Source: Opitutales bacterium
GTDB lineage: Bacteria; Verrucomicrobiota; Verrucomicrobiia; Opitutales; Oceanipulchritudinaceae
Reading direction: 5' to 3'
Length of the DNA stretch: 64,000 nt
Assembly: GCA_016932335.1 (NCBI GenBank)
Contig: JAFGCZ010000014.1
Location: 62,001 to 126,000, forward strand
Part shown: piece after piece, positions 15,177 through 33,531 of the stretch
Numbering within the stretch: the stretch's first letter is position 1
Layout of the letters: every line of letters begins with the position of its first letter
The notes under the pieces: model-generated
Told to the model about the DNA's origin: nothing
Databases searched by the model: none
Seen by the model: only the letters and a program-made list of their open reading frames with translations
Position numbers and translations under genes: made by a program

Positions 15177-16229
15177 TCACCGCGATTTAGGGAGAAATGC
15201 GGTGGTTTCTCCAGTCACCAGTTTTCCAGCAACCATAACGTGACGGCATTTCGGTGAACCCTCCCTCATTTTCCGCTCAAGTTCGTGCACGGCAGAAAAA
15301 CCAACATCTTTGAGCGATACGGCAACCGTAGTGAGCTGAGGCAACCCTTCAGGCGGCAGCACACCATCGAACCCGGTTACTGAACAATCCTGAGGGACCC
15401 GGATGCCGTGTTTTTGCAATCCGACAAGCAGGTGGTAAGCCTGGTGATCGGCGGCGCAGACCCACGCGGTGACTCCTTCTCGGGTACGCCGAGCCACATA
15501 AGCCACCAATTCATCCAGAGGCAAGGCCGGCCCCGGTAACACATTGACAATGTTCGCTGGGTTAATCTCCAAGCTAGAAAGATACATGTGCTCCAGATAA
15601 GTACCAAGACGGCGTTCCACCCACTTGGCCCGGATTTTATATTTCCAACTGATAAAGCCTATGTTGGTGTGCCCTAAAGAAATCAGACGGTCCATAACCA
15701 AATTGATACCGTGGTGCTGATCGGGCTCTACGCAATCCAGCCCCAGATCATCGTAATCATCGAGAATGGAAAGCGTGGGAATCCTGCTCATTAGGTTCTT
15801 GACCGCCTCGGAAGCAAACGGATAAAGCATCAGAGCTCCGGCCCACTCGCTGATATTGATGTTTTTGACAATTCTGCGTGTTTTCGGCCCCGGAGTAAAA
15901 GAGTCCGGATCAATATAATGGATCTGTATGGCCATTTTTGAGGCAGCAGCCCGTTCGCTGATACCGTCCAAAATCTGAGACGCCGTATCCACCGTAGCAA
16001 TTTGATCCTTAGGCAACCCGACAAGAACCGCTATGGTCTGACATTTTCCCTGAGCACTGCGTTCGCGCACATTTCGCGGAGCGCTGTATGAATAGCCCAG
16101 TTGATTTGCCAACTGAAAAACCTGAGATCGAGTTTCCGGATTAATTTTCGGGTGGTTGGTAAAACAACGCGAGACCGTGGTTCTGGAAAGATTCAGTTGA
16201 TCGGCAATTTCCTGTTGGGTAACTTTCAT
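15177..16229 (-). CDS. LacI-family transcriptional regulator
   Basis: 350 residues. An N-terminal LacI helix-turn-helix with hinge helix (VTQQEIADQLNLSRTTVSRC, then PETRSQVFQLANQLGYSY) is followed by a periplasmic-binding-protein-like effector domain (about 65-345). That domain contains DCVEPDQHHGINLVMDRLISLGH and QDCSVTGFDGVLPPEGLPQLTTV. It is probably a sugar-responsive repressor or activator of the adjacent beta-glucan locus. It is encoded just downstream of the TonB-dependent receptor (298-base gap), and three copies of a LacI-like palindrome (TGCAC-N3-AATGCA) lie upstream of the receptor, phosphorylase and transporter genes. No good copy lies at its own promoter; a degenerate half match is near 16427. 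The effector is unknown. Confidence 0.92.
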   Translation of the reverse strand: MKVTQQEIADQLNLSRTTVSRCFTNHPKINPETRSQVFQLANQLGYSYSAPRNVRERSAQGKCQTIAVLVGLPKDQIATVDTASQILDGISERAAASKMAIQIHYIDPDSFTPGPKTRRIVKNINISEWAGALMLYPFASEAVKNLMSRIPTLSILDDYDDLGLDCVEPDQHHGINLVMDRLISLGHTNIGFISWKYKIRAKWVERRLGTYLEHMYLSSLEINPANIVNVLPGPALPLDELVAYVARRTREGVTAWVCAADHQAYHLLVGLQKHGIRVPQDCSVTGFDGVLPPEGLPQLTTVAVSLKDVGFSAVHELERKMREGSPKCRHVMVAGKLVTGETTAFLPKSR

Positions 16230-16410
16230 AGGTTGATTTCTGAATATAGGAAGAGAGTTATGTTTAAAAATGAGACTGACGAGTAAAAACTGGTGTAGAG
16301 TGCACTATTCATCAACAAGAAGAAAACGGCAAAAAACCAAAAAAGGTACACCTAACCATCTCACACAAAAAAACTTAGAATCTCAAAACAACACTCATCC
16401 ATGTAACCTA

Positions 16411-16427
16411 TAAGGATTTATGTGCAT
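16411..16427 (-). promoter_or_regulatory. Degenerate half-site resembling the TGCAC-N3-AATGCA operator
   Basis: Read on the minus strand this region contains TGCACATAAATCCT. It shares TGCAC and the AA of the operator motif seen at 19550, 19581 and 25021 but lacks the second TGCA. It lies about 190 bases upstream of the LacI start, so weak autoregulation is possible. The match could easily be chance. Confidence 0.25.
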
Positions 16428-16450
16428 TATTCCGAAAAGCACGAAGAGTT

Positions 16451-16490
16451 AAAAAAGTAAGCCGCATCCCATTTCCATGAGATGCGGCTT
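16451..16490 (-). terminator. Terminator of the TonB-dependent receptor gene
   Basis: The stem AAGCCGCATC / GATGCGGCTT, read on the minus strand, is followed by a run of T (TTTTTT). It begins 37 bases beyond the receptor stop codon. Confidence 0.9.
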
Positions 16491-16526
16491 CTCCTGAGTA
16501 AGTATCAAACAGACTATGTTCTATTA

Positions 16527-19481
16527 TCAAAAAGATATCCCCATCTGCCATCTCCATGACATACCGGGAGCATAGATCAGTCCGTATTGATCTTCATCAT
16601 CCAGTAGGTTGTCTATGTTCAGCTGAGTGGTGAAGTCATATTTATCGCTGAGGGTGCGGGAATACTTAAGCATAAGGTTCACAGTATAACGTGGGTCCGT
16701 CCATGCCTGAATCTTGGTACCACTATCGTTGAGCTTCAACTGGCGGGTGGTGGTGAAAGCAGAAGCATACTCACGCTTGCTTTCCCAGGTAACCCCGAGC
16801 CCCACCTGGAATCCGTTGAGCACACCTTCGGTAAAGCGGTAGGTGGCCCAGGAGCTGACAGCATCCTTGGGAGTATCATCCAGTGATTCACCTGTGCCGT
16901 ATCCAATACCGGCCCAACTGTTGGTGTCGATATTGGGCAGACCAGCGGAACCACCGGGATAGGCGTCTTCGGGCTGAACCCCACTAAGGCCCCATGAACC
17001 ATTGGGGAAGTACCAAACGGCCCAGCGGTCCCAGTTGTCGGGATTGTAGGGATATTGGGCAAAGTTCCCGGCATCGTCGATCTGACGTGTGGTGTGCGAA
17101 TAGTTGAGGAGAATCTGAATGTTTTCGTTCGGAGTAAAGAGGAGTTGGGCCTCATAACCTTCGGACGAATCGGAAATGGACTGACTGGCGCCATGAGAAG
17201 ACCAGTCTTCGGAAGCGGTGTTCACGTTGGGGTCTTCGTCCACTTCGGTGCCAGTGTAAAGCCAACCCGGCCATGCATCCACACGCTCTTCATAGGGTTT
17301 GGCATATTCTGCATTGAGGGTTTCAAAGACTTTATCGAGGTACGCGGCACCATCTGCAGAGGAGGCATTGATGTACGTGTAGGTTTCTCCATCATTTGGA
17401 TTTACCGCCTCGAACACCGCTCCGGAAGCAACGGCACTGTCCCATTCGCTGCGGGCTGACTGGAGCCAGAGATTATCGGCCTTGGCCGGATCTGCAGCAT
17501 TGAAATCGTCCATACGATAAACGATATCGGCATCGGGATCAAACTGCCCCCATGCGGGATAGGGAGCCCACCAGTAGGATGCGGGAACACCGGTGCGCTC
17601 GATTTTAAATGCGCTGACAGTTCCGGAAATTTTTCCATCGAACAAGTCGAATTTGATGCCGGCTTCTTTGGAAACGGCCTTGGCGGCGGGCAGCGCATTG
17701 CCATATCCATCCACAGCGCCATCGAAATTGGGATTAATCCCTTCGGAACGCAGGGCAAAGACACTAAACCCTTCCAGCAATTCCAAGCTGACCCCAAACT
17801 GAGTGCTGTCGGTGGAAACACTCGGGCTTTCGCTAATCTCAAAAGGTGCAGATACCTCGCGCAGATTGGCGTTGATGGTATCGACAGAGTTTTTGTCGCG
17901 GCGGATACCGGCAATGACAAAAAGGCGATCTTTGAGGAAGCGGCCGGAATAGACCAGATAATTGCCTGCGTTATTGGCTGAGGTCCATTTGTAGGTATTG
18001 GGCTCGAGCTCGGAGCTGGGAGAACCGTCTCCCTGAACATCAAAGCGGATGTAGGAACTGTCCAGAGGGCTTTTCCAATTCCAATCAGCCGAATTGTAGC
18101 TCATAATATCGCTTTCAGATTCTTCGTAGGAAAAGCCGTAGAGCAGATTATGCGAGGAAGCGAACCATCCTTTATCCTGAAGCAGATCGAACTTATAGTT
18201 TAATTCTGCGCGGAATTGGTCGCGGGTGTTTTCCTCGTGGTTATCGCTCCAGTTATACTGGAAGACAACATTATCCACTTCCACAAAATCATCGGCCGTA
18301 GTTCCATTGATGATCTGGCGCGCCCGAACAGTGCCCCACAGATCCTGAGGGCCCGTGTTGCAGACTAATGCGCCAAAGACGTCGCGGGTATCATATTCGG
18401 CCTTGTTGTAGTTGTAGCCGATAAGGGCATCCAGCCCATCAAAGATATGCTGTTCCACTTGGATGAAGGCATTTACGGCCTTGGTCTCTACATAGGTATC
18501 GGGGCCGGACCAACGAAAAGTGCGCACGTCCTTATCATCAAATTCAAGGAAGCCGTATGTCTGCATGCGGTCAGGCTGATCGACGGGAATATCTTCGATG
18601 GTGGGGGTGCGCACACTTTGGAAGCTGACCCCTTCATCGGTTTGCTCACCGTATTCAAAATCCACAGTAACTTTGGTTGTTTCAGTTGGCTTGAACGTGA
18701 CAATGGGCGAGATAAAGTAGTGCTCACTGTTTTTGATATCCGTCCAATCGTCGGATGTTTCCGCAGCCATAGTAATGCGGTAGTTAACATCCCATGTTTC
18801 AGAAATCGGCCCGGAGACATCCGCAGTGGCCCGGTAGAGATTGTCGGAACCGATCTGCACCTCATATGACTGATGCAGTTTATCCATCGGCTGTTTGACC
18901 ACGTAATTGATGACACCACCAAAATTACCGATACCGTAAAGCAACGCAGAAGGCCCGCGGACAACTTCAATACGGTCGATATTAATGGAGTCGGTGGCAT
19001 GCTGACGGCGGAAACCGTTGCGCAGAACATTGTCGGTTACAAATCCGCGCATTTTGAAAGACGTCTGCGTTTTATTATTGGTCACCCCTTCGGGGTTGTT
19101 GACACCGCCTACATCATCAAATGCGGCCGCATTCATGGCATCGTTCTGGGACTGGAGGACAATCCCCGCGCTGTAGCGGAGGGATTCGCGCAAGTCTCCT
19201 GAGCCGGTGTCTTCGATAAATTCGGATGTGACCACTTCGATGCTCAGGGGAATATCCTTGATGGGGACATTCACGCGGGTACCGGAAATGGCATTGGAGG
19301 CATAGTAGCCGCTATCTGTAGATGTATTGACCTCAAACGGAGAGAGTACGAGGACAGTGTCCTGGTCGTCCGCCCCCTGCCCAAAGACAGCCGGCGAACA
19401 CAGCAGTGCAGGGGTAGCAACAGCTGCAAAAAGGGCGAAATGAGGTACAGATCGCCCGTTCCTGGGTTTCATTTTTTTCAT
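16527..19481 (-). CDS. TonB-dependent receptor of the beta-glucan locus
   Basis: 984 residues from ATG 19481. The frame is open 26 codons further up to 19559, but that segment overlaps the operator and is unlikely to be translated. After a signal peptide (about 1-36) comes VLVLSPFEVNTSTDSGY, the N-terminal extension typical of Verrucomicrobiota receptors, which probably holds the TonB box. The plug domain (about 55-190) includes GTRVNVPIKDIPLSIEVVTSEF and RGPSALLYGIGNFGGVINYV. The 22-strand barrel ends in the terminal aromatic residue (WQMGISF). It moves oligosaccharides or metal complexes across the outer membrane with TonB energy. No SusD is present. The divergent phosphorylase-like gene and the laminarinase-type genes suggest beta-glucan oligosaccharides as substrate; this is inference. 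Confidence 0.92.
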   Translation of the reverse strand: MKKMKPRNGRSVPHFALFAAVATPALLCSPAVFGQGADDQDTVLVLSPFEVNTSTDSGYYASNAISGTRVNVPIKDIPLSIEVVTSEFIEDTGSGDLRESLRYSAGIVLQSQNDAMNAAAFDDVGGVNNPEGVTNNKTQTSFKMRGFVTDNVLRNGFRRQHATDSINIDRIEVVRGPSALLYGIGNFGGVINYVVKQPMDKLHQSYEVQIGSDNLYRATADVSGPISETWDVNYRITMAAETSDDWTDIKNSEHYFISPIVTFKPTETTKVTVDFEYGEQTDEGVSFQSVRTPTIEDIPVDQPDRMQTYGFLEFDDKDVRTFRWSGPDTYVETKAVNAFIQVEQHIFDGLDALIGYNYNKAEYDTRDVFGALVCNTGPQDLWGTVRARQIINGTTADDFVEVDNVVFQYNWSDNHEENTRDQFRAELNYKFDLLQDKGWFASSHNLLYGFSYEESESDIMSYNSADWNWKSPLDSSYIRFDVQGDGSPSSELEPNTYKWTSANNAGNYLVYSGRFLKDRLFVIAGIRRDKNSVDTINANLREVSAPFEISESPSVSTDSTQFGVSLELLEGFSVFALRSEGINPNFDGAVDGYGNALPAAKAVSKEAGIKFDLFDGKISGTVSAFKIERTGVPASYWWAPYPAWGQFDPDADIVYRMDDFNAADPAKADNLWLQSARSEWDSAVASGAVFEAVNPNDGETYTYINASSADGAAYLDKVFETLNAEYAKPYEERVDAWPGWLYTGTEVDEDPNVNTASEDWSSHGASQSISDSSEGYEAQLLFTPNENIQILLNYSHTTRQIDDAGNFAQYPYNPDNWDRWAVWYFPNGSWGLSGVQPEDAYPGGSAGLPNIDTNSWAGIGYGTGESLDDTPKDAVSSWATYRFTEGVLNGFQVGLGVTWESKREYASAFTTTRQLKLNDSGTKIQAWTDPRYTVNLMLKYSRTLSDKYDFTTQLNIDNLLDDEDQYGLIYAPGMSWRWQMGISF

Positions 19482-19549
19482 TAAGACAATCGGGGTTCGT
19501 TGGTTAAGTGAAAGCGAAACTGCCAGCAATGGCAATGGTCCAAAGTTTG

Positions 19550-19563
19550 TGCACCTCAATGCA
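19550..19563 (+). promoter_or_regulatory. Operator-like palindrome, copy 1 (TGCACCTCAATGCA)
   Basis: TGCA-N6-TGCA with matching flanks (TGTGCA on the left and TGCACA on the right). It is the first of three sites fitting TGCAC-N3-AATGCA. It lies 69 bases upstream of the receptor ATG on the minus strand. A TTGACG (minus strand, 19567-19572) that could serve as the receptor's -35 box lies between this copy and copy 2, which would suit repression by the LacI protein encoded nearby. Confidence 0.65.
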
Positions 19564-19580
19564 CATCGTCAATACTATTT

Positions 19581-19594
19581 TGCATTAATGTGCA
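19581..19594 (-). promoter_or_regulatory. Operator-like palindrome, copy 2 (minus strand TGCACATTAATGCA)
   Basis: The second copy of TGCAC-N3-AATGCA, in opposite orientation, 31 bases from copy 1 centre to centre (about three helical turns). The spacing is compatible with cooperative binding on one DNA face. It lies in the divergent region between the receptor and the phosphorylase-like gene, so it could control both. Confidence 0.65.
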
Positions 19595-19733
19595 CCTTTT
19601 TTAATTGACTCAAAAAGTGAATTGAAGATGCTCTAAAAGATATTCGGAAGAAATACCGAGACGAATTTCCAACGAACGAAAGGATGGCTCAGCCCCTTCG
19701 TTCCGACAGATCTCCCAACACATACACCCTTAC

Positions 19734-22700
19734 ATGAAGGAATTTTCCACACCCCCTCTCGAAGACAACGAACACGGCTTTACAATCCGCCGGTACGATC
19801 ACATGGATCCATTTCTGATTCACCTCCCGAGCAGCAGCAATCACTGGATTTATGCGGGAAGCAACGGTGCTATAAGCGCCGGAAAAGGAAATCCGGGCAA
19901 GTCTTTGTTCCCATATTATACGCAGGACAAACTGTTCGATATGGCCGATGCGGCAGGCAGCCTATGCCTCTTGCGCGGTATCGATAAAAACGGCCAAAAC
20001 TACCTGTTGGAAGCCTTTAAGAAGGGAGCTGTAACGGAGCAGACGATTGAACGAAACCTTATAAAAAGCAGCAGCGGAAGCGCCCTGACTTTTGAGGAAA
20101 TACACCGAGAAAGAGGCCTTATCATACAATGCACCTGGAGCAGCAGCGAAAACTATGGCTTACTCCACTCTCTAACGGTTAAAAACACCGGAAAAAGTCC
20201 TCTGGAATGCGACATACTCTTTGGCATTCACAACATTATGCCGGCCGGCTTAACCGACCAGTTTCAAAATGAATTCAGCAACTTGGCCGATGCCTACAAA
20301 CGCTGCGAACTGATCGGTCCCAACAACCTGGCACTTTACTACTTAAATTCGGTACCCACCGACAGAGCAGAGCCCAGTGAGGGATTGCGTTGCAATACAG
20401 TCTGGAACTGCGGCTGGAACGATGCTACGGTGCTGATCAACAGTAAACAGATAGAACAGTTTCGCCAGGGAAAAACCGTTGAAGCCATCCCCGAGTCACG
20501 TGGCTTAAGAGGAGCCTATCTATTGAGTAAGCGCATCCACCTGGAGGGAGGAAGCAGCAGCCGTTGTATACTGGCGGCAGAGTTGGGCTTGTCTGCAGCA
20601 GAAGTGGTTAACCTGCAGCATAAGTTGAGGTCACTCCCCAACGCGATAGCAGAACTCGACAAAGAAGCCAAGGATACCGCAAGAACGTTGAAAGAAATAA
20701 TCGCTGCGGCAGACGGGTTGCAGGCCAGCGGAGATCCATTGCGCAATGCGCGCCATTACTCCAACACACTTTATAATGTGCTCAGAGGCGGGATTTTCGC
20801 CAAAGGCTACATCCTCCCAACAGAGGATCTGAGGAAAACCATCGAGCATTACAATAAGGACGTATTTGAGAAGCACCGCCCGTGGCTGGAAACGTTACCC
20901 GAAAGCCTGCACCTGAACGACTTACTACAACAGGCTGAAAAAACGAATGATCACCAGCTGATTCGACTTTGCCGTGAGTATTTGCCGCTGATTTTCAGCC
21001 GCCGCCACGGTGATCCATCCCGTCCCTGGAATCGCTTCAATATTGTCCTTAAAAATACAGACGGAAGCCCCAAATACGCTTATGAAGGGAACTGGCGCGA
21101 TATTTTCCAAAACTGGGAAGCCCTGCTTTACTCCTACCCCGAATTTATTGAGTCCGTCATCTACAAATTTGTGAATAATTCCACAGCCGACGGTCATAAT
21201 CCCTACCGGATTACCAAAGACGGATTTGACTGGGAAATATTCGATCCCAATTCACCGTGGTCAAACATCGGCTACTGGGGCGACCATCAGATAATATACC
21301 TGCTGAAACTGCTGGAGGCCTCGCACAAACACCACCCTTCCCGACTTCAAAACCTGTTGAAAAAGAGCTATTTTTCGTATGCACAAGTTCCTTACCATAT
21401 TCGAGAGTTCAGTGAGGTGCTGAAGAACCCAAGCGCATCCATTGTTTACAGTGATGCCGATGAACAAGCAATCTACGCACGCATTGGCCGCATGGGTGAA
21501 GACGGCAAAATGCTGCCGACCGCAGACGGAAAGGTTTATCAGGTAACCCTGATGGAGAAACTGCTGGTAGCACTGTTGAGCAAACTGGCCAATCTGGTTC
21601 CCGGCGGCGGTATCTGGATGAATACTCAGCGTCCAGAATGGAATGATGCCAACAACGCGCTGGCTGGCTTTGGCATTTCTGTGGTTACTCTGGGCTACAT
21701 TCACCGTTATATATTGTTCCTCGAAGATCTGGTCCGTGAGAGCACTCCCGAAGGTGTTTTTGAGCTGAACCGGCGCCTGAAAAAATGGCTGGAAGAACAA
21801 ACCGCCACACTGGAAAAACTGTCCTGCGATGAAAACGCCGTCAATCATTCGGAAAAACGTCGGAAATACCTTTGTGAACTGGGAATTGCAGCAAGCAATT
21901 ACCGGCTGGATCTGTATGCACATGGTGCAGATGAACACTTTGAACCATTATCCAGATCTGAATTGCTTCGCTACCTGGAAGCCGCCAGAAAAAGCGTTTC
22001 TCATTCACTGTTGAAGAATGAGCGAGGCGACGGATTGTTCCATGCGTACAACACGATGAACCTGACAGAAAAGGGCATCGATTTATCGCGTTTGGATGTC
22101 ATGCTGGAGGGACAAGTTTCGATTCTCAGCGCCCATCTATTGAACGCCAACAAAGTCAGCGATTTACTCAAAGCCCTGCGGCAAAGTGCTCTTTATTGCC
22201 CGCAGAGAAAGTCTTACCTGCTGCAGCCCGATAAAGCACTGCCCTCCTTTTTGGAGAAAAACAAAATTACCACGGAAGCCGTTGAAAAAAGCGCGCTGCT
22301 GAAGCAAATGCTGAAAGATGGCTACACCTGCATCGTTGAAAAAGATAGCGATGGGAACGTGCGCTTCAACGGTGATTTCCGCAACAGCGAAGGTGTCGGC
22401 ACGGCTTTGGAGCAAATGAAGCGAACGGCCTACAAAGCACTTATCGAGGAGGAACAGAAAGATCTGCAACAGCTTTTTGAAGAAACCTTCCAACACCGGA
22501 CATTTACCGGGCGATCCAGTGCCTTTTTTGCCTTTGAAGGACTCGGCAGCATTTACTGGCATATGGTCTCCAAACTGATTCTGGCAATTCAGGAAAACCA
22601 CACTCAGATCCGTAAAGAAGACCCGGCCGGAGAAAACTGCAGCACCGTTGCCGCGGCTTATACAGAGACACTCCTTGGGCTGGGACTTTATAAAAGCCCT

Positions 22701-23156
22701 CATGAATACGGAGCATTTCCGACGGATCCTTATTCGCACACCCCCAAACATGCCGGAGCGCAACAACCGGGCATGACTGGACAGGTAAAGGAAGACTTAC
22801 TCAACCGTTACCTCGAGCTCGGGCTGGAAATTCATGACGGCTGTATCCGCTTTGATCCGTATCTGCTGCAAAAGCAGGAGTTTGCAGAGGGAGAAAGTTG
22901 CTTCCATTATTACTCAACCAACGGAGCGTGGGAAACACTGGATCTCCCGGAAAACAGTCTGGCCTTTACCTATTGTCAGGTCCCGGTGGTTTACCACATC
23001 GGAAAAGACAGGCGTCTATGTCTTCACTTCAAAGATGGGCATAAAGTAGAAAAAATGGAAACCACACTAAACCAAGAGGAGGCAAAGCATCTTTTCAGCA
23101 GAAGCGAAAAACTACATTACCTCTATGTGCAGTTTCCCGAAACGATCTTTCACTAA
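19734..23156 (+). CDS. Large cytoplasmic glycoside phosphorylase-like protein (clan GH-Q, GH149/GH161-type candidate)
   Basis: 1140 residues, no signal peptide and no membrane helix, so cytoplasmic. The N-terminal half is beta-rich (SNHWIYAGSNGAISAGKGNPG and ALFGIHN-like strands). The second half looks like an (alpha/alpha)6 barrel, with FSRRHGDPSRPWNRF, YEGNWRDIFQNWEALLYSYP, NIGYWGDHQIIYLLKLLE and NTQRPEWNDANNALAGFG. The EWNDANNAL stretch resembles the DWND general-acid region of GH94 phosphorylases. Beta-1,3-glucan phosphorylases of GH149 and GH161 have about this length, cytoplasmic location and clan. GH17, GH16, a sugar transporter and GH30 follow directly, so a phosphorylase releasing glucose 1-phosphate from imported beta-glucan oligosaccharides fits well. 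Family membership is from memory of motifs and context; another alpha/alpha-barrel hydrolase cannot be excluded. Confidence 0.6.
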   Translation: MKEFSTPPLEDNEHGFTIRRYDHMDPFLIHLPSSSNHWIYAGSNGAISAGKGNPGKSLFPYYTQDKLFDMADAAGSLCLLRGIDKNGQNYLLEAFKKGAVTEQTIERNLIKSSSGSALTFEEIHRERGLIIQCTWSSSENYGLLHSLTVKNTGKSPLECDILFGIHNIMPAGLTDQFQNEFSNLADAYKRCELIGPNNLALYYLNSVPTDRAEPSEGLRCNTVWNCGWNDATVLINSKQIEQFRQGKTVEAIPESRGLRGAYLLSKRIHLEGGSSSRCILAAELGLSAAEVVNLQHKLRSLPNAIAELDKEAKDTARTLKEIIAAADGLQASGDPLRNARHYSNTLYNVLRGGIFAKGYILPTEDLRKTIEHYNKDVFEKHRPWLETLPESLHLNDLLQQAEKTNDHQLIRLCREYLPLIFSRRHGDPSRPWNRFNIVLKNTDGSPKYAYEGNWRDIFQNWEALLYSYPEFIESVIYKFVNNSTADGHNPYRITKDGFDWEIFDPNSPWSNIGYWGDHQIIYLLKLLEASHKHHPSRLQNLLKKSYFSYAQVPYHIREFSEVLKNPSASIVYSDADEQAIYARIGRMGEDGKMLPTADGKVYQVTLMEKLLVALLSKLANLVPGGGIWMNTQRPEWNDANNALAGFGISVVTLGYIHRYILFLEDLVRESTPEGVFELNRRLKKWLEEQTATLEKLSCDENAVNHSEKRRKYLCELGIAASNYRLDLYAHGADEHFEPLSRSELLRYLEAARKSVSHSLLKNERGDGLFHAYNTMNLTEKGIDLSRLDVMLEGQVSILSAHLLNANKVSDLLKALRQSALYCPQRKSYLLQPDKALPSFLEKNKITTEAVEKSALLKQMLKDGYTCIVEKDSDGNVRFNGDFRNSEGVGTALEQMKRTAYKALIEEEQKDLQQLFEETFQHRTFTGRSSAFFAFEGLGSIYWHMVSKLILAIQENHTQIRKEDPAGENCSTVAAAYTETLLGLGLYKSPHEYGAFPTDPYSHTPKHAGAQQPGMTGQVKEDLLNRYLELGLEIHDGCIRFDPYLLQKQEFAEGESCFHYYSTNGAWETLDLPENSLAFTYCQVPVVYHIGKDRRLCLHFKDGHKVEKMETTLNQEEAKHLFSRSEKLHYLYVQFPETIFH

Positions 23157-23169
23157 CCCTAATTCATAT

Positions 23170-24168
23170 ATGATCCAAAAACTCATACCCGCATTCATCG
23201 CCCTAAGCACTGCGGTTTTATGGAGTGCAGAGCAGCCCCACCACACACTTGGAGAAACCTGGGAACCGGCCATCTGTTTTTCCGTTTACAGGGACGGGCA
23301 AAGCCCGGTAACACAATCCTACCCGACAACAGAGGAAATATCTGCAGACCTGCAGTTGATTGGCCAACACTTCAGCCTGATTCGCTTATACGATTGTAGT
23401 GAATACGCCGTGCGGCTTTTGGAAACCATCCGTGCAGAACAACTGCCTTTTAAAGTGCTTCTGGGAGCCAGTTTGGATGCCGAATTTGCCAACCCCAAGA
23501 ACAGTTGGACCGATTGGGCGGGGGTCAATTTTGAAAAGAACAAAACACATAATGACGAAGAGACAGACCGCCTGATTACATTGGCCAACGAGTATTCCGA
23601 CATCATCACCGCCGTTGCGGTGGGCAATGAATCGCTGGTGGACTGGACAGACCACCCGGTAACACCTGAGCGAAGTCTGGAGCTGGTGCTGAAAGTGAAG
23701 CACAGAGTAATACAACCGGTAACGGTATGCGACAACTGGGTGCCGTGGTGGGATGGTTTGGACGGGCTCGCCGAAGCGGTAGATTTTATCTCTCTGCACA
23801 CCTATCCTCAATGGGAAGGGAAGTCGGTGGAACAGGCACTGGATTACAGCAAAGCCAATTACTATACCGTCAGGGCCGCTCACCCCGGTAAAAAAGTCAT
23901 CATTACAGAAGCCGGTTGGTGCACCACAAGCGATCATCCGCAGATGTTGCCCGGTGCTGCCACGGAAGAGAACCAGACTAAGTATATCGGCAAGCTGCTG
24001 GACTGGGCTCAAGCAGACCAGATTACCCTCTTTCTCTTTGAGGCGGTCGATGAAAACTGGAAAGGAAGCGAATCCCGGACAGAGCCGGAGAAACACTGGG
24101 GCTTATACCGCTCAGACAGAACGCCCAAGAAAGTCGTGGAAAGCCTCCGCAAACTCACAGAAGAATAA
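23170..24168 (+). CDS. Secreted GH17 beta-1,3-glucanase
   Basis: 332 residues from ATG 23170, with a signal peptide (MIQKLIPAFIALSTAVLWSA); the frame is open 15 codons upstream, but that overlaps the preceding gene and is unconserved. It is a (beta/alpha)8 barrel of glycoside hydrolase family 17. The acid/base Glu154 lies in VAVGNES and the nucleophile Glu247 in VIITEAGW, both at family-typical positions. Other family features are LIRLYDCS and FISLHTYPQW. GH17 enzymes cut or transfer beta-1,3-glucans such as laminarin. The gene starts 13 bases after the phosphorylase-like gene and ends 8 bases before the GH16 gene, so one operon is likely. Whether it is endo, exo or a transglycosylase is not visible. 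Confidence 0.9.
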   Translation: MIQKLIPAFIALSTAVLWSAEQPHHTLGETWEPAICFSVYRDGQSPVTQSYPTTEEISADLQLIGQHFSLIRLYDCSEYAVRLLETIRAEQLPFKVLLGASLDAEFANPKNSWTDWAGVNFEKNKTHNDEETDRLITLANEYSDIITAVAVGNESLVDWTDHPVTPERSLELVLKVKHRVIQPVTVCDNWVPWWDGLDGLAEAVDFISLHTYPQWEGKSVEQALDYSKANYYTVRAAHPGKKVIITEAGWCTTSDHPQMLPGAATEENQTKYIGKLLDWAQADQITLFLFEAVDENWKGSESRTEPEKHWGLYRSDRTPKKVVESLRKLTEE

Positions 24169-24176
24169 ACACACTT

Positions 24177-24974
24177 ATGAAATCACCTCTACTACCCTTA
24201 GCACTTTTAAGCCTACTGCCCATGAATCTACACGCAAAAGAATGGAAATTGGTTTGGTCCGATGAATTCAACGAGGGTGCGTTGCCATCGACAGAAAAAT
24301 GGCGTTACCAAACAGGCGGTCACGGTTGGGGGAACAATGAGCTTGAGTTTTATACCGACCGAAGAGATGAAAACGCCAATGCCTTCATTGAAGAGGGAAA
24401 GCTCATCCTCGAAGCCCGAAAAGAAGCTTACAACGATTTGCTTTACACCTCGGCCCGGCTCAATTCCAGAGAGAGTTGGATCTATGGCCGCTTTGTTATC
24501 CGTGCGAGAGTGCCCGAGATGGAGGGCACGTGGCCGGCCATCTGGATGATGCCGGACAAGGCCACCTACGGAGACTGGCCCAAGAGCGGGGAAATAGACA
24601 TTATGGAGCACCTTGGCCGGATGAAAAACTCCATCCATTGCACCCTGCACACCGAGGCAGCCAACCATATGAAGGGGAATCAACGGACAAGCATCACCGA
24701 AGTAAAAACAGCAACCACAGAATTCCATGATTACCGTGTGGACTGGACACCTGAGGGTATCTGCGGATTCGTGGACGATGTTTTGTTTTTCTCGGCAGAG
24801 AACGAAACACTGGCAGACCCAGAAAAAGGGCATGCTTACTGGCCGTATGACCAGCCTTTCCACCTGATTCTAAACCTGGCCATCGGCGGAAACTGGGGCG
24901 GCGAGGTTGATCCCGCACTGACAAACCAAAGGTTGGAAATAGACTATGTGCGTGTTTATCAGTGCGAGGACTAA
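24177..24974 (+). CDS. Secreted GH16 endo-beta-glucanase (laminarinase type)
   Basis: 265 residues: a signal peptide (about 1-20) followed by a single GH16 jelly-roll domain with no binding module. The catalytic signature is complete: Glu139, Asp141 and Glu144 in SGEIDIMEHLGR, the E-x-D-x-x-E form with methionine typical of laminarinases and lichenases. Other conserved parts are WSDEFNEG, WGNNELEFYT, GTWPAIWMMP, HDYRVDWTPEGI and NLAIGGNWGG. It would hydrolyse internal beta-1,3 (or mixed-linkage) bonds of laminarin outside the cytoplasm. It lies in the GH17-GH16-transporter-GH30 series. GH16 also contains agarases and carrageenases, but the neighbours and motif favour beta-glucan. Confidence 0.92.
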   Translation: MKSPLLPLALLSLLPMNLHAKEWKLVWSDEFNEGALPSTEKWRYQTGGHGWGNNELEFYTDRRDENANAFIEEGKLILEARKEAYNDLLYTSARLNSRESWIYGRFVIRARVPEMEGTWPAIWMMPDKATYGDWPKSGEIDIMEHLGRMKNSIHCTLHTEAANHMKGNQRTSITEVKTATTEFHDYRVDWTPEGICGFVDDVLFFSAENETLADPEKGHAYWPYDQPFHLILNLAIGGNWGGEVDPALTNQRLEIDYVRVYQCED

Positions 24975-25020
24975 TCGGCCGGGCACTCAAATTTCACAGG
25001 CCGGAGCATTCTTTGTATTG

Positions 25021-25034
25021 TGCACAACAATGCA
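25021..25034 (+). promoter_or_regulatory. Operator-like palindrome, copy 3 (TGCACAACAATGCA)
   Basis: The third site fitting TGCAC-N3-AATGCA, 52 bases upstream of the transporter ATG in the 111-base gap after the GH16 gene. It suggests a second regulated promoter inside the locus, controlling the transporter and GH30. Confidence 0.62.
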
Positions 25035-25085
25035 AGTTGCTAAGGTCAAAAACAACTACCTCAATTCTGCAATTTACCCCTATAC

Positions 25086-26465
25086 ATGAAAGAAAACTCC
25101 ATCAAGCTAACGGAGAAAGTTGGCTATGCGCTGGGTGATACCGCGTCAAATTTCTTTTTCCAAACGTTCAATCTATTCCTTCTTTATTACTATACAGATA
25201 TATTTGGCCTGCCGGCGGTATGGGTGGGGTCGATGATGCTGGCCGCCCGTTTGTGGGATGCCGTAAGCGACCCACTGATGGGAGTCATTGCCGACCGCAC
25301 CAAGACACGCTGGGGGCGCTACCGACCCTACCTGTTGTGGATGTCCATCCCTTACGGAATTGTCGGCTTTCTGGTGTTTGCCAATCCAGATTTGGACACG
25401 ATGGCACAGAAAAAGATTTATGCCGCAGTAACCTACCTGATGATGATGACGGCTTACACGGCCATCAATATCCCCTACTCGGCATTGATGGGGGTTATGT
25501 CGCGCTCTTCGGACGAGCGGACCACGCTTTCCACGTTTCGCTTTGTCGGCGCATTCAGTGGCGCATTAGTCATATCCGCCTGTGCACTCCCCTTGAAAAA
25601 CTATCTGGGAGGAGTAACGGAAGATCTACAGGGGGCTGCGCTGGTGCAGGCGGAAGCCACCGGATTTCGTCTGACGATGCTGTTGTTTGCCATCGCGTCT
25701 ATAATTTTCTTTGTGATTACATTTGCCACCACGCGTGAGCGAATTGATCCGCCAAAATCTGAGAATGCATCGATCTTCCGAGATTTTAAAATCCTTTTGC
25801 AAAACCGCCCCTGGGTAGTCATGTGGATTGCTGCGATATTGACCCTGACCAATACGGCGGTACGCAACGGAGCAATCATCTATTACTTTAAGTACTTTGT
25901 CGGTTCGGAAACTCAGGCCACCTATTTCTATACCACGGGCGGAATTGCCATGGTGCTGGGGGTAGCCTCAACCAAACTGTTCACAGCCCGCTGGAGTAAG
26001 AAGAACCTGATGATCGTGCTGAGCACGCTCAATGCCATATGCATTCTAGTGTTTTTCTTCATTCCCAAAGAGCAGGTATGGTTGATGCATATTGTAAACG
26101 CGGTGGGCACCTTTGTGGTTGGGCCAACGCCTGCGCTGGTCTGGGCGCTCTACTCCGACACCGCGGACTATGCCGAGTGGAAGTTTAAACGCCGGGCCAC
26201 GGCACTGACATTTTCCTCGGCCATGTTTGCACAAAAGCTGGGGCTGGCCCTGGGAGCGGGAATGGCCGGCTGGATTCTCAGCTACCTCGGGTTTGTGGCT
26301 AACCAGGCCCAAACAGATGAGGCCATTTTAGGCATTCGACTCATTTTCAGCGTAATTCCAGCAGTATTTGCCTTTGCCAACGCCGGAGTCATGCTCCTCT
26401 ATCCTTTAAACGAAGCAAAAGTGGCTGAAATCGAAGCCGATTTACAAGCACGCACTGCTGAATAA
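25086..26465 (+). CDS. GPH-family (MelB/YicJ-like) cation:sugar symporter
   Basis: 459 residues with about 12 membrane helices. The N-terminus KLTEKVGYALGDTASNF and the loop DPLMGVIADRTKTRWGRYRPYLLW are diagnostic of the glycoside-pentoside-hexuronide family within the MFS fold. Such proteins import glycosides with Na+ or H+. Here it would carry oligosaccharides made by GH16, GH17 and GH30 across the inner membrane to the cytoplasmic phosphorylase-like enzyme. An operator-like site lies just upstream, and the GH30 gene follows after 13 bases. The substrate is inferred from neighbours only. Confidence 0.92.
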   Translation: MKENSIKLTEKVGYALGDTASNFFFQTFNLFLLYYYTDIFGLPAVWVGSMMLAARLWDAVSDPLMGVIADRTKTRWGRYRPYLLWMSIPYGIVGFLVFANPDLDTMAQKKIYAAVTYLMMMTAYTAINIPYSALMGVMSRSSDERTTLSTFRFVGAFSGALVISACALPLKNYLGGVTEDLQGAALVQAEATGFRLTMLLFAIASIIFFVITFATTRERIDPPKSENASIFRDFKILLQNRPWVVMWIAAILTLTNTAVRNGAIIYYFKYFVGSETQATYFYTTGGIAMVLGVASTKLFTARWSKKNLMIVLSTLNAICILVFFFIPKEQVWLMHIVNAVGTFVVGPTPALVWALYSDTADYAEWKFKRRATALTFSSAMFAQKLGLALGAGMAGWILSYLGFVANQAQTDEAILGIRLIFSVIPAVFAFANAGVMLLYPLNEAKVAEIEADLQARTAE

Positions 26466-26478
26466 CCCCTACTCTGTA

Positions 26479-27990
26479 ATGAACCTGTATAAAACCCTTA
26501 CCAGATGGGCACCGGCCGCCGGATGCATCCTAAGCGGAACCATTACCTGTGCCGCAATGACCACTGAAGTATTTCAAACATCGCGGGACGGAGACCGCCT
26601 GACTGCGCTTCCCGCCCTGCTTGTAGCAGAACATCCTCATGAATTGGAGGTTGCCTTAAACCCCGAGCAAACGTATCAGAGCATCGTGGGCATCGGGGGC
26701 GCATTCACCGAATCTTCCGCCGTTGTTTTGCAGAAAATGTCCCGCGAGAAACGCATGGAAGTGATTGATGCCTATTTCTCGGAGGCAGGGGCTGCTTACT
26801 CACTCATGAGAACCCATGTGGGGGGCTGCGACTTTTCACTGGGAAGTTATAATTATGCCCCAAACCCCAATGACGAAGAGCTGGAAGAGTTCTCCATCCG
26901 CGAAGATAGAGACGACTTGATCCCTTTGATCAAAGACGCCCAGGAGGCATCCAGAGACGGGTTCAATATTCTTGCGTCTCCGTGGACAGCACCCTCGTGG
27001 ATGAAAGACAACAACAGCCCATTGGCCGGGCATTTATTAAAGGAACATTACGGCACTTATGCGCGCTACTTTGCCAAATACATCAAGGCATATGCGGAAG
27101 AAGGCATTCCTGTCTGGGGAATTACCGTAATCAATGAGCCAGAGGGTAACGGAGGCCAATGGGACAGCATGCATATGAGCCCTGAGGAGATGGCAGAGCT
27201 GGTAGCAGACTACATAGGACCCGAATTTGAGAAACAGGAAATCGAGGCAAAAATCCTGATTTTTGACCAGAACCGTGAGCATGCCAAGGAATGGACTGAC
27301 CGCTACTACGAGAATCGAGAAGCACTCTCTTACACAGCCGGGACAGCACTGCACTGGTACAGCAGTACCTACGAAGTACATGAAGAGGTAATCCGTGATA
27401 TTCTCCGGGCCAATCCGGGGCAGTTTGTAATGCACACCGAAGGCTGCATTGATGCCATTAACAGTGTGCCTCAAGGAGACTGGCTGAAAGACGACTGGTA
27501 TTGGAGAAAGGAATGCACCGACTGGGGATACCATTGGGCAGAACCGGAAAACCGCCACCACCATCCAAAGTATAAACCGTTTTTCCGCTATGCCCGCAAT
27601 CTCTTGGGTTCTCTGCAAAGCGGGATGTGCGGATGGATAGACTGGAACATCGTGCTGGATTTCAACGGAGGGCCCAACCATGCACAAAACTGGTGTCTGG
27701 CGCCGATTCTCTGCGATCCGGAAAGTGACACGGTGTATAAAACGCCACTCTACTATGCCATGGCCCACTACAGCAAATTCGTTCGGCCCGGAGCCGTGCG
27801 CATCGCTTGCCCGGAAATGGTATTGGGAGTCATGAGCGGTGCCTTTAGAAACCCCAATGGTTCCATTGTTGTTATTTTACTCAATGAAGAGCCGGAGACC
27901 AAACGCTTCTCAATCTCTCTGAAGGGGAGCTACTATGAGGGAGAGCTCAAGGCGGAAGCCTTGCAAACAATCCTCTTCAAAGAAGAGTAA
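26479..27990 (+). CDS. Secreted GH30 glycosidase (beta-1,6-glucanase or beta-glucosylceramidase-like)
   Basis: 503 residues with a signal peptide (about 1-26). The GH30 (beta/alpha)8 domain starts with QSIVGIGGAFTESSAVVL and holds acid/base Glu220 in VINEPEG and nucleophile Glu321 in FVMHTEGC. A C-terminal beta-sandwich of GH30 type begins at about residue 440 (NPNGSIVVILLNEEPETKRF). Subfamilies with this 'GGAFTES' start include glucosylceramidases, exo-beta-glucosidases and endo-beta-1,6-glucanases. In this locus, removal of the beta-1,6 branches of laminarin is the most economical reading. It is the last gene before a plus-strand terminator. Subfamily assignment would need a tree. Confidence 0.9.
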   Translation: MNLYKTLTRWAPAAGCILSGTITCAAMTTEVFQTSRDGDRLTALPALLVAEHPHELEVALNPEQTYQSIVGIGGAFTESSAVVLQKMSREKRMEVIDAYFSEAGAAYSLMRTHVGGCDFSLGSYNYAPNPNDEELEEFSIREDRDDLIPLIKDAQEASRDGFNILASPWTAPSWMKDNNSPLAGHLLKEHYGTYARYFAKYIKAYAEEGIPVWGITVINEPEGNGGQWDSMHMSPEEMAELVADYIGPEFEKQEIEAKILIFDQNREHAKEWTDRYYENREALSYTAGTALHWYSSTYEVHEEVIRDILRANPGQFVMHTEGCIDAINSVPQGDWLKDDWYWRKECTDWGYHWAEPENRHHHPKYKPFFRYARNLLGSLQSGMCGWIDWNIVLDFNGGPNHAQNWCLAPILCDPESDTVYKTPLYYAMAHYSKFVRPGAVRIACPEMVLGVMSGAFRNPNGSIVVILLNEEPETKRFSISLKGSYYEGELKAEALQTILFKEE

Positions 27991-28307: not shown

Positions 28308-29903
28308 TTATTTGTGCGATGAATCGTCTACACTGGAGGCATCGGTAAACACGTAGCGTTTAGCCAGTTCGGTATAGTCTTTTACTTGTTGTGCTGCCCA
28401 TTGAGCATCTTGCCCTAATTCTTTAGATAAAATCTGAGCCACCACAGGAGCAGCAGCAATGGAGGCTTTGGCATTAAGCAGGAGGGCTCTGGTGCGCCGG
28501 GAAAGAACGTCTTCGACTGTGCGGGCCATTTCCTCGCGGGCATGCCAAATGACTTCGGCCTTCTGATAGTTGAGGTCTGGATGGATGCGCTCGGCCAATG
28601 CGGGATCTTCCTGGGATATGGCTTTTACGTGGGATGCATCACTTCCATAAACGGCAAGGTTGGCCTGCTCATTCTTATTTTGAGTCCAGCCGTGAATCTG
28701 CATTTCCTTGGTCACGCATTCTTTCTTTTCCATGGAGCCGACACCTTCAGCCTGGTTAATGACATCCTCAGCCATGCGGCGGTAAGTGGTCCATTTCCCT
28801 CCGGTCAGGGTAATCAGACCGCTCTTGCTGATCATAATGGTATGGTCTCGGGAAAGAGCCTTGGTATTTTCGGAATCTCCTTTGGCGCGAACCAAGGGGC
28901 GCAAACCTGCAAAAATACTGCAAACATCGTCATCTTCCGGCTTTTCCGTAAGGTATTTGCGGGCATGGGCAATGACGAAGTCACGTTCTTCAATCAAGGC
29001 ACGCGGTTCCAGACTCTTGTGGTGCAGAGGCGTATCGGTGGTGCCCAAAACCACATGATCGTGCCAAGGCACGGCAAAGAGCACGCGCCCATCGGAGGTT
29101 TTGGGAATCATGATGGCCGAATTACCCGGTAAGAATTTCTTTGGGAGGATGAGATGGATACCCTGACTTACGGCAACAATATCTTTGCTTCCCGGTTCGT
29201 CCATTTTGCGGAGATCATCGACAAAAACGCCAGTAGCATTGATGACGACTTTTGCCTTTACGGTAAAAGTCGTATCCTTCTCCAAATCGTGAATTTCCAC
29301 ACCGGAGACTTTTCCGTTGTCCTTAAGAATGCGGGTGCAGCGGGCATAGTTGACCACGGAGGCGCCGAGATCTTCAGCAGTTTGGGCCAGATTGACCGCT
29401 AGGCGGGAGTCATCGAACTGACCATCGGAATAGCACACGCCACCGGTCAGGTGATCCGGGTTAATGGTAGGGATGGCCTGGAGGGTTTTCTCCCGGCTCA
29501 ATTTACGGGAAGGTTCCAGCCCCAGTTTCCCGGCCAGAGCGTCGTACATCTTCATGCCGATGCCGTAGTAGTGCTTCTGCCACCATTTGTAGGAGGGAAT
29601 GACAAAGGCTTGTGAACGCACCAGATGCGGTGCATTTTTAGCCAGTCGGCCGCGTTCGTGCAAGGCTTCCAGAACGAGGGAAACATTGCCCTGCTGGAGG
29701 TAGCGCACACCGCCATGGACCAGTTTGGTTGATTTACAGGAAGTGCCTTTGGCAAAGTCGCTCTGTTCAAAGAGAGCCACGCTGTGCCCGCGGGAGGCAG
29801 CGTCAACTGCCGCCCCCAGACCGGAAGCACCGCCGCCGATAACAACGATATCGAAAGGTTGCTCAGCTGACTGAACTCTATCTAGTGATAAGGAACGTTT
29901 CAT
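28308..29903 (-). CDS. glpD: FAD-dependent glycerol-3-phosphate dehydrogenase
   Basis: 531 residues. It oxidises sn-glycerol 3-phosphate to dihydroxyacetone phosphate at the inner membrane, passing electrons to quinone. The FAD-binding dinucleotide fold is at the N-terminus (FDIVVIGGGASGLGAAVDAASRG, about 17-39), followed by GTSCKSTKLVHGGVRYL, the GlpD/GlpA signature. FAGLRPLVR and LITLTGGKWTTYRRMAED are further family blocks. The C-terminal domain (about 400-531) is helical. It is the last gene of glpF-glpK-porin-glpD on the minus strand, 56 bases after the porin. Length and motifs are normal. Confidence 0.95.
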   Translation of the reverse strand: MKRSLSLDRVQSAEQPFDIVVIGGGASGLGAAVDAASRGHSVALFEQSDFAKGTSCKSTKLVHGGVRYLQQGNVSLVLEALHERGRLAKNAPHLVRSQAFVIPSYKWWQKHYYGIGMKMYDALAGKLGLEPSRKLSREKTLQAIPTINPDHLTGGVCYSDGQFDDSRLAVNLAQTAEDLGASVVNYARCTRILKDNGKVSGVEIHDLEKDTTFTVKAKVVINATGVFVDDLRKMDEPGSKDIVAVSQGIHLILPKKFLPGNSAIMIPKTSDGRVLFAVPWHDHVVLGTTDTPLHHKSLEPRALIEERDFVIAHARKYLTEKPEDDDVCSIFAGLRPLVRAKGDSENTKALSRDHTIMISKSGLITLTGGKWTTYRRMAEDVINQAEGVGSMEKKECVTKEMQIHGWTQNKNEQANLAVYGSDASHVKAISQEDPALAERIHPDLNYQKAEVIWHAREEMARTVEDVLSRRTRALLLNAKASIAAAPVVAQILSKELGQDAQWAAQQVKDYTELAKRYVFTDASSVDDSSHK

Positions 29904-29959
29904 TTCTTAGGAATTTCTTTTAAATAGCGTCGGATCGGAGAAAGTGCTTCCAACGCCGG

Positions 29960-31219
29960 TTATAAGTTGATGACACCACGGATTCCGGTTACCCATACGG
30001 TATCCCGATCGCCATTGCCCTGCGGGTTTTTGACGGCTTGAATGCTTGGCTGAATGGTCAGCCAGCCGGTTACTTTGGCCTTATAAGAAAGCTCCAGAGT
30101 AAATTCTTCGTTGGCTTTTACCCCACCGGCAGCCACCTGAGCATCGGAATAATCACTGCTGAGGAAGGCGGCAATCAGACCGATGCCCAATTCATCCTGT
30201 GGACGGGAGGCAAAGGGCCCAACAAAGCGAGCCATAGCGGTGAATTCGTGATGATAGAGGTTGCGGTCTTCGGGAGCGTATACCCACATGATGGAGGCAT
30301 CGAGGTGGCGGGATTTATCTCCACCGAGATAGATCAGGGTTTTACCCAGACCGGTATAAAAGAGGTAGTCGTTATCTTCGACCTCCGCATTGTAAGTGGA
30401 AAAATCACCGGTATTATAGTGCATACCAACTTTAAAGAAGCCGGGCATGGCAGAAGCGGAACCATTTTCCCGATAACCGAATTCGGTGGCATAGCCCACG
30501 GGACCTTCCCAGGAAGCACGCAAGCCATTATGGTCGTCGTAATAAGCGTCGAGGTTGTTGGTATCAAAGATTCCGGCTTTCAGGTAAAGATCGGATGATG
30601 CTGTTGGCCGCGTCATAACCCAGGTAGCAATGAGGCCCAATTTTTCTGCCGGATCGTAGGGCAATGCCGGGCCAAAGATAGCGTTGGGCACATAGGCAAA
30701 CTCATCGTTCATGAAGCTGCTGCCGTATTCCTGATTCCCAAATGCTCCAACCGCATCAATTTTCCCCAACCGATAGGAGAAAGCACCTTCGGCCAGAGTT
30801 TGTTCAAACCAAAACTCGGCAAGCCGGGTGGTTTCGGCCCCTTCGATGGAACTGGGGTTGGTAAACACGCCAAAGCGGGAACGGTTGTAGTTACGCCCGT
30901 ATTGATGAACGCCGCTGACCACAAACTTACCGCCTTCGATCCCAGCCAGTTTTTCCAGATCGAGGTTCATTCGGGCACGGAAACGCCCAAAATAGGCGGT
31001 ACCATTACTGAGCGCACCATCAATGTCATCGTAGCTGTCAAAGATATGAAAGAGGTCGAAGGTAATACCATCGTTGGCCAGAGAAGTCCGAGAACCATCC
31101 CAATCTCCGAAGAGATAGGGACTGTTCGTAATGCTATAATCCTGCGCCATTGCCTGAGAAAAGAGACCGGCAAAGCAGGCCACTCCAAGAGAGAGGCTTT
31201 TCGATAATGTTTTGTTCAT
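29960..31219 (-). CDS. OprB-like carbohydrate-selective porin in the glycerol operon
   Basis: 419 residues with a signal peptide (about 1-25, ending SQAMAQ). The mature N-terminus (LFGDWDGSRTSLANDGITFDLFH) is the OprB start; such proteins usually begin GDWGGxRxxLxxxGI. The rest is amphipathic beta-strand pattern ending in an aromatic-hydrophobic C-terminus (VTGIRGVINL). OprB porins let small carbohydrates diffuse through the outer membrane. Its position between glpK (13 bases upstream) and glpD suggests it serves glycerol or glycerol-phosphate entry, an outer-membrane counterpart of GlpF. Confidence 0.87.
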   Translation of the reverse strand: MNKTLSKSLSLGVACFAGLFSQAMAQDYSITNSPYLFGDWDGSRTSLANDGITFDLFHIFDSYDDIDGALSNGTAYFGRFRARMNLDLEKLAGIEGGKFVVSGVHQYGRNYNRSRFGVFTNPSSIEGAETTRLAEFWFEQTLAEGAFSYRLGKIDAVGAFGNQEYGSSFMNDEFAYVPNAIFGPALPYDPAEKLGLIATWVMTRPTASSDLYLKAGIFDTNNLDAYYDDHNGLRASWEGPVGYATEFGYRENGSASAMPGFFKVGMHYNTGDFSTYNAEVEDNDYLFYTGLGKTLIYLGGDKSRHLDASIMWVYAPEDRNLYHHEFTAMARFVGPFASRPQDELGIGLIAAFLSSDYSDAQVAAGGVKANEEFTLELSYKAKVTGWLTIQPSIQAVKNPQGNGDRDTVWVTGIRGVINL

Positions 31220-31232
31220 GTTTAACCCCTAG

Positions 31233-32741
31233 TTATGCTTCTGATGCTTCTTCCCAGTTTTTGGCACGCTCGAGGGCTTTATCCCACCCCTTACGCATGT
31301 TTGCCATTTCCGCAGCATCTCTGTGCGGATCGAAGATGGCATCTTTCTCCCAATGTTTACTGATTGTCTCTTTACTATCCCAAAACCCTACAGCGAGCCC
31401 GGCCAGATAGGCCGCCCCCATAGCGGTGGTTTCGATGCACTTCGGACGAACCACGCGTGATTGCAGCAAATCGGATTGAAATTGCATCATAGGCTCACTC
31501 CGGCAGGCGCCACCGTCCACGCGAAGCTCTTTGAGGGAGAGGCCACTGTCCTTTTCCATCGCCGTGATGAGGTCGGCACTCTGGAATGCGATCGACTCCA
31601 GCGCAGCCCGGCAGAAATGAGCTCTGTTCGTGCCGCGGGTAATGCCAACAGCAACCCCACGGGCATAGGGATCCCAGTGCGGAGCACCAAGACCGGCAAA
31701 CGCTGGAACAATGTAGAGCCCTCCGGCATCGGTCACGGTTTTGGCAACCTCGTCGATTTCGGGTGCAGTTCGCACCATCTGCAATTCGTCGCGAATCCAT
31801 TGAACAACAGCTCCGCCGATGAAGACCGAACCTTCCAACGCATATTCTGTTTTGTTGCCGATACGCCAGGCAACCGTAGTGAGCAGGTTGTTTTGTGAAC
31901 GGACGGGTTTTTCTCCTGTGTTCATGAGCAAGAAGCAACCCGTGCCATAAGTGTTCTTAACCATTCCCGGAGCGAAACAGGCTTGGCCGAAGAGGGCGGC
32001 ATGCTGATCTCCGGCAATCCCGGAGATGGGGGCTCCGGCCGGATAAAGATTTTGCTTAACGTGCCCGTAAACCTCGGAGCAGGAACGGATTTCCGGGAGC
32101 ATACAACGAGGAATGTTAAATAGTTTCAGGAGATCATCATCCCAATCGTCTTTCTCAATGTTATAGAGAAGGGTTCTGTCGGCGTTGGTCACATCGGTAA
32201 CGTGTACTTTGCCACCGGTGAGTTGCCAAACAAGCCAACTGTCCACCGTGCCGAAGAGTAATTTGCCGGATTCAGCCTTTTGCCGAGCGCCCGGCACATT
32301 TTCCAGAATCCAGCGGATTTTGGTTCCAGCAAAATAGGGGTCGAGGCGCAGTCCGGTTTTTTCAGAAACCATAGCTTCGAGGCCTTCTTCCTTGAGCTTA
32401 AGGCAGTAATCAGCGGTGCGTCGGTCCTGCCAGACGATGGCATTGTAAACTGGTTTTCCGGTTTCCTTATCCCAAACAATGGTGGTTTCTCGTTGATTGG
32501 TAACACCTACAGCTGCGATATCGTCGCCACTGAGGTTGGCTCTGGAGATAGCTTCTGCGGCCGTGGAACTCTGACTGGACCAAATCTCCATCGGGTCGTG
32601 TTCCACCCAACCCGGTTTGGGATAAATTTGCTGGAATTCTTTTTGGGCAACAGAAACGATTTTAGCATCGTGATCGAAGATGATGGATCTTGAGCTGGTA
32701 GTGCCCTGATCAAAGGCAAGTATGTATTTTTTTTCGTTCAT
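31233..32741 (-). CDS. glpK: Glycerol kinase
   Basis: 502 residues, the normal length. It phosphorylates glycerol to sn-glycerol 3-phosphate with ATP in the cytoplasm. FGGY-kinase blocks are intact: the N-terminal [17 protein letters not shown], the substrate region [29 protein letters not shown], and the FGGY C-terminal signature around [16 protein letters not shown]. The residues of the catalytic base (Asp in [10 protein letters not shown]) and of glycerol contact (Arg-Arg in QDRRT) are present. It is 33 bases downstream of glpF and 13 upstream of the porin. Confidence 0.97.
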
Positions 32742-33521: not shown

Positions 33522-33531
33522 ATTTTTTTGG

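Follow-up and report, generated by a model that had tools for sequence, protein, structure and literature searches.

Three copies of a short motif lie close to a gene for a LacI-family regulator in this stretch of DNA, and we wanted to know whether they are the operators of that regulator. The original prediction had proposed this on the basis of the motif TGCAC-N3-AATGCA, and its factual part is easily confirmed: within the window (that is, the whole 64-kb stretch of DNA that was analysed) the motif matches exactly at 19550, 19581-19594 and 25021, all three copies are intergenic, in promoter gaps as claimed, and the LacI-family gene at 15177-16229 carries the Pfam domains LacI and Peripla_BP_3. 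We give a probability of roughly 85% to the reading that the three sites, called O1, O2 and O3 below, are operators of this LacI protein, which would be a local repressor of beta-1,3-glucan genes, released by sugar. This reading is supported by phylogenetic footprinting, by a matrix made from other genomes, by the presence and absence of sites in loci that were picked by their GH149 gene, and by a change of spacing in one subclade of the regulator.

The locus and its three sites

Judging from the enzyme families, the genes at 15177-27990 probably form a beta-1,3-glucan (laminarin-type) utilisation locus. Laminarin is among the main algal storage sugars. The features are as follows.

15177-16229, minus strand: LacI-family regulator, 350 aa, HTH and Peripla_BP_3 domains; predicted binder of O1-O3
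16459-16490, minus strand: terminator-like hairpin between the TonB receptor gene and lacI, a 14-pair stem followed by a T run
16527-19481, minus strand: TonB-dependent receptor (Plug domain), with a site conserved upstream of its orthologs; predicted target of O1/O2
19550-19563, plus strand: site O2, TGCACCTCAATGCA, exact match, 69 bp upstream of the TonB receptor ATG; weakest of the three
19581-19594, minus strand: site O1, TGCACATTAATGCA, between the divergent TonB receptor and GH149 genes; strongest of the three
19734-23156, plus strand: GH149 beta-1,3-oligoglucan phosphorylase (phmmer match to PDB 6hq6); predicted target of O1/O2
23170-24168, plus strand: GH17 glucanase (Pfam, gene order), probably co-transcribed with GH149
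24177-24974, plus strand: GH16 glucanase (Pfam, gene order), probably in the GH149 operon
25021-25034, plus strand: site O3, TGCACAACAATGCA, 52 bp upstream of the MFS sugar transporter ATG
25086-26465, plus strand: MFS_2 sugar transporter (Pfam); predicted target of O3
26479-27990, plus strand: GH30 glycosidase (Pfam, gene order), 13 bp past the transporter and probably on one transcript with it

The gene that had been called phosphorylase-like does encode a phosphorylase, and it can be assigned more precisely to GH149. Its 1140-aa product matches PDB 6hq6, a bacterial beta-1,3-oligosaccharide phosphorylase, over residues 13-1133 (phmmer, E = 5.9e-291), compared with just 1.7e-9 for GH161; it has no Pfam match. 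The TonB receptor most plausibly starts at the ATG at 19481 rather than at the mechanically called TTG at 19559. Counted from this ATG, O2 and O1 lie 69 and 100 bp upstream, and on the other side the distances from O1 and O2 to the GH149 ATG at 19734 are 140 and 171 bp. Since the strong hairpin at 16459-16490 separates the receptor gene from lacI, the latter probably has its own promoter in this genome. Autoregulation of lacI in this genome was considered and rejected: the best candidate site, at 16413, has two mismatches and falls outside the top matrix hits. Further along the window, at 28308-34556, we see an apparent glycerol gene set with a glycerol-3-phosphate dehydrogenase-like FAD enzyme, an OprB-type porin, glycerol-kinase-like and aquaporin-like ORFs and a DeoR-family regulator.

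In the regulation that we propose, a LacI dimer would bind the 14-bp inverted repeat TGCA-N6-TGCA with its A/T-rich core, and LacI sitting on O1-O3 would keep the TonB receptor, the GH149 operon and the transporter operon switched off. Known LacI-family operators, for example the cre sites of CcpA, have this same 14-bp frame. When breakdown products of beta-1,3-glucan (laminarin-type) reach the cytoplasm, a sugar, presumably a laminari-oligosaccharide or one derived from it, would bind to the Peripla_BP_3 domain; the sugar-bound LacI would then leave the DNA, and the uptake and degradation genes would be expressed. The centres of O1 and O2 are 31 bp apart, about three helical turns, so that the pair could seat two dimers on one face of the helix, possibly in a cooperative manner.

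It is unlikely, but worth weighing, that the LacI protein binds these sites as an activator or a dual regulator rather than as a simple repressor. The sites are 52-171 bp away from the start codons and the scan did not place any promoter with confidence, which would leave room for activation; against this, repression is the usual mode among characterised LacI-family proteins that control local sugar genes. As for the promoters, the scan for sigma-70-like signals gave 9 hits where 8.7 were expected, that is, a chance number. The original prediction had suggested that a TTGACG between O1 and O2 could be the -35 box of the receptor. The hexamer does lie there (minus strand, 19572-19567), but its role as a promoter element finds no support, as no sigma-70-like promoter passed the scan at this position and the accompanying -10 is poor (TTGACG-17-CAAACT, 3/6).

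Counts and positions of the motif

The exact form of TGCAC-N3-AATGCA has no fourth copy in the 64-kb window, and in the 2.1-Mb assembly (80% complete) there are 4 copies where about 1.0 would be expected, the fourth being at C14:82613 inside a 770-aa ORF. The exact motif is thus not scattered at random over coding DNA; such a scatter had been named beforehand as a possible refutation. With two mismatches allowed, 24 matches are found in the window and 22.4 expected, and at this chance level only the exact form is informative. Looser patterns behave similarly: the overall count of TGCA-N6-TGCA in the genome itself is near chance, several of its good-scoring sites outside this locus are not next to any obvious sugar gene, and TGCANNTTAATGCA gives 19 matches in 55 relatives, again near chance. 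Such counts without position are therefore uninformative. If the 33 listed TGCA-N6-TGCA sites of the genome were scattered at random, the probability of finding at least three within these 5.5 kb would be 1e-4, for a region that was picked post hoc.

A symmetric 14-bp matrix, trained on N6-type sites outside the studied genome, ranks O1, O3 and O2 first, second and third in the 64-kb window, with 18.6, 14.9 and 12.1 bits; the next match has 11.1. With a longer, extended matrix O1 remains first and O3 second, and O2 (19550) drops below 7, which makes it the weakest of the three. Note that the motif as first described is present but is a local form of the real one, an inverted TGCA-N6-TGCA repeat whose core is A/T.

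A TGCA-N6-TGCA site around 1430-1560 of L192 (G000:C4:33000-36000) is flanked by a repeated segment, GAGCTAACCGCTCTATTTGCCGACAGGCACTGGTGAC, that resembles an intergenic repeat.

Sites beside orthologous regulators

Orthologs of the regulator were taken from relatives and from GTDB genomes, and the noncoding DNA of their loci was searched for all inverted or direct 4-mer dyads with spacers of 0-20 bp. In the 18 loci of closer orthologs TGCA-N6-TGCA ranks first (31 noncoding copies in 14 loci, 0.4 expected). It is also the first among the inverted dyads in the 80 loci with more distant homologs, where it has 60 copies in 37 loci against 2.0 expected, followed by TGCA-N8-TGCA with 19 copies in 18 loci. 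Note that TGCA is its own reverse complement, hence the counts of inverted and direct dyads coincide. With its flanks, the consensus is roughly TAARG-TGCA-MWTTAA-TGCA-AWT.

The sites of the relatives precede genes for the TonB receptor, GH149, transporter, GH16 and GH17-adjacent genes and, often, lacI; a GH81 and a GH72-like gene also occur in the neighbourhood. Loss of the motif where the LacI gene is kept had been named as evidence against the operator, and in most such loci the sites are retained; two orthologs (L065, L092) have one-mismatch sites only, and in two more (L067, L106) no site was found. The genome also encodes a second LacI paralog, 69% identical to the first, whose divergent promoter region contains the site TGCAGTTTAATGCA next to a cluster of GH5, TonB receptor, GH16 and transporter genes. 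In summary, the same kind of site recurs beside LacI relatives across Verrucomicrobiota and in some Planctomycetes. A search for relatives of the regulator on viral contigs found none.

A different LacI-type gene, at 32710-33639 of contig C1 of G000, is flanked by the TGCA-N6-TGCA sites TGCAACGCCTTGCA and TGCAAATGTTTGCA at 30951 and 36136 (L160, L161, L198). The second of these is just ahead of a TonB receptor gene, and this may be another LacI regulon.

Co-occurrence of sites and regulator

We searched for GH149 in 289 genomes of the phylum and took 19 loci, ignoring the regulator in this choice. Five of the loci have an N6-type LacI close by, and each contains a site that scores 12 bits or more (in one of them, L236, the only site at this level has one mismatch), compared with none of the ten loci without an N6-type LacI. 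One locus, L234, has strong sites and no LacI within 20 kb; a search of its whole genome finds an N6-type LacI on another contig (460 bits). In the ten genomes without sites, such a search gives just generic LacI proteins of no more than 97 bits, or nothing at all. Sites are thus found in 6/6 genomes with an N6-type LacI and in 0/10 without (Fisher p = 1.2e-4), a value to be read with the caveats that the ten LacI-less loci all come from other classes of the phylum, so that lineage and regulator are confounded, and that some of the six genomes are near relatives of those used to train the matrix. The remaining three GH149 loci have a second LacI type, one of them with an N8 site between lacI and the receptor gene.

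In one locus, L066, divergent LacI homologs with two helix types (CFTNHP and SLANHP) stand back to back at 8763-10993; there is one TGCA-N6-TGCA between them, and GH149 and TonB receptor genes adjoin.

Half-site spacing and helix type

Of the 55 loci whose homolog has the helix ...TVSRCFTNHP, 43 carry N6 sites and 2 carry N8 sites; where the helix is ...TVSRS(L)xNHP, N6 is found in 5/45 and N8 in 17/45. The spacing is sharply fixed at N6-type loci, with 66 copies for N6 and at most 8 for every other spacer. When the tree is calculated with the DNA-binding part removed, it shows a single split between the helix types and two changes of spacing, which leaves one independent comparison. The Fisher value of 6e-12 for the shift between N6 and N8 is therefore overstated, and no significance can be claimed from a single independent pair. 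A subclade of the second helix type, with SQ(P/T)TVSRS, retains N6. The association of helix and spacing suggests, short of statistical proof, a direct contact between LacI and DNA.

In the subclade with the helix SRSLANHPAI, TGCA-N8-TGCA replaces N6 in L094, L096, L102, L105, L116, L117, L124, L125, L127 and L129, and these sites are upstream of a TonB receptor, a transporter or lacI. The sequence TGTGCACA is also over-represented near LacI homologs with this helix.

Could some other protein, such as a global regulator of sugar or carbon use, be the one that binds the sites, with LacI being just a neighbour? Gene neighbourhood by itself cannot identify the binding protein, and half-sites that contain TGCA occur for other regulators such as CytR (PMC3454398). 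We nevertheless regard this as quite improbable: the sites track the N6-type LacI in GH149 loci even when LacI is elsewhere in the genome, they often precede lacI itself in the set of loci near LacI, their spacing varies by LacI subclade, and no gene for another regulator could be made out from 11.5 to 28 kb of the window. That the three copies are chance matches or functionless copies of a spread repeat is very unlikely: it would agree with the chance-level counts of the two-mismatch motif in the window and of TGCA-N6-TGCA genome-wide, but is contradicted by the conservation upstream of orthologous genes in dozens of genomes, by the independent matrix that puts just these three sites on top, and by the presence and absence of sites with LacI in GH149 loci.

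Comparison with known systems

The LacI protein and its predicted operators resemble the LacI/GalR local sugar regulators catalogued by Ravcheev et al. 2014 (PMC4052901) in combining HTH and Peripla_BP_3 domains with an inverted-repeat operator. The operators in this catalogue are mostly 30-140 bp upstream of sugar genes, likewise here; autoregulation is frequent, and the distances of paired sites peak at 32 bp, about three helical turns, compared with 31 bp for O1 and O2. The text of that paper does not mention Verrucomicrobia or laminarin.

CytR of Escherichia coli, a LacI-family protein whose reported half-sites include TGCAA/TTGCA (PMC3454398), is similar to our case in its TGCA sites; however, its spacers vary widely, it needs CRP and its targets are nucleoside genes, whereas here the spacer is fixed at N6 (N8 in one subclade) and the genes are glucan genes. 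GlyR3 of Clostridium thermocellum (PMC5483248) is a LacI-family repressor of the celC-glyR3-licA operon that laminaribiose releases, which is close to our proposal, but the system is Gram-positive and, unlike the locus here, is without a TonB receptor or GH149. BglR of Thermotoga maritima (PMC3750489) controls laminarinase and laminaribiose transporter genes, but belongs to the ROK family and not to LacI. Clusters of GH149 with LacI or AraC regulators have been described (PMC5827456), with GH16/GH17/GH30, TonB receptors or transporters and a nearby regulator, as here; the available part of that paper gives the gene order and names no operator, whereas here an operator is predicted. In the open-access literature, we found no operator of glucan genes in Verrucomicrobiota. 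A defined operator and regulator would allow beta-1,3-glucan-responsive genes to be predicted in these mostly uncultured bacteria.

Hinge of the regulator and centre of the predicted operator

The regulator has an N-terminal LacI-type HTH (Pfam LacI, 33.1 bits with a cut-off of 27, residues 6-47) and a C-terminal sensor domain (Peripla_BP_3, 78.9 bits). Its relatives in the PDB are CcpA/LacI, and the predicted model matches CcpA and LacI structures. Its hinge is atypical: in the alignment, Arg52 and Arg55 are found where LacI has Ala53 and Leu56. Among the N6-type homologs the position of Ala53 is Arg in 52 of 53, and the position of Leu56 is never Leu. In the AlphaFold model residues 49-61 are unstructured with a pLDDT under 50; however, a control model of a canonical Rhodopirellula LacI has a pLDDT of 40, and hinges of LacI proteins without DNA may be disordered too, so that the sequence is stronger evidence on the hinge than the model.

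The operator is unusual as well. None of the 66 noncoding TGCA-N6-TGCA sites near N6-type regulators has a central CG, and 58 have AA, AT or TT instead. In contrast, operators of the catalogued LacI-family regulators are mostly even palindromes with a central CG, found for 1173 of 1303 regulators (PMC4052901). In the LacI family the hinge helix has a leucine, which enters the central CG, in 82%; exceptions such as CytR, cited as departing from the rule because of a flexible unstructured linker, have been called rare (PMC2978694). Note that hinge Ala/Leu and central CG are typical, not universal, in the LacI/GalR family and are not conditions of membership. The predicted regulon is best classed with the LacI family, its operator and hinge being atypical.

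We tentatively suggest, at somewhat below even odds, that a large LacI subfamily of Verrucomicrobiota and Planctomycetes has dropped the hinge-leucine wedge at a central CG and reads an A/T-centred operator via the conserved linker Arg52 in the narrow minor groove, and that linker and helix changed again in one subclade, with half-sites 2 bp further apart. A regulator without the usual hinge contact, paired with operators that have no central CG, offers a case in which LacI-type DNA recognition can be tested directly. If the suggestion is true, the subfamily would provide a natural series from which to learn how the distance between half-sites is set by LacI-type proteins.

In three loci of Rhodopirellula type (L126:17798-17811, L119:17881-17894 and L113:11834-11847) we see TGCAACCGGTTGCA, a perfect palindrome with a central CG, next to an MFS_2 transporter gene and a different LacI that has the canonical hinge ARGLASGR. 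Its outer frame is that of the operator studied here, but its centre is the usual one of LacI, a contrast that is suggestive only.
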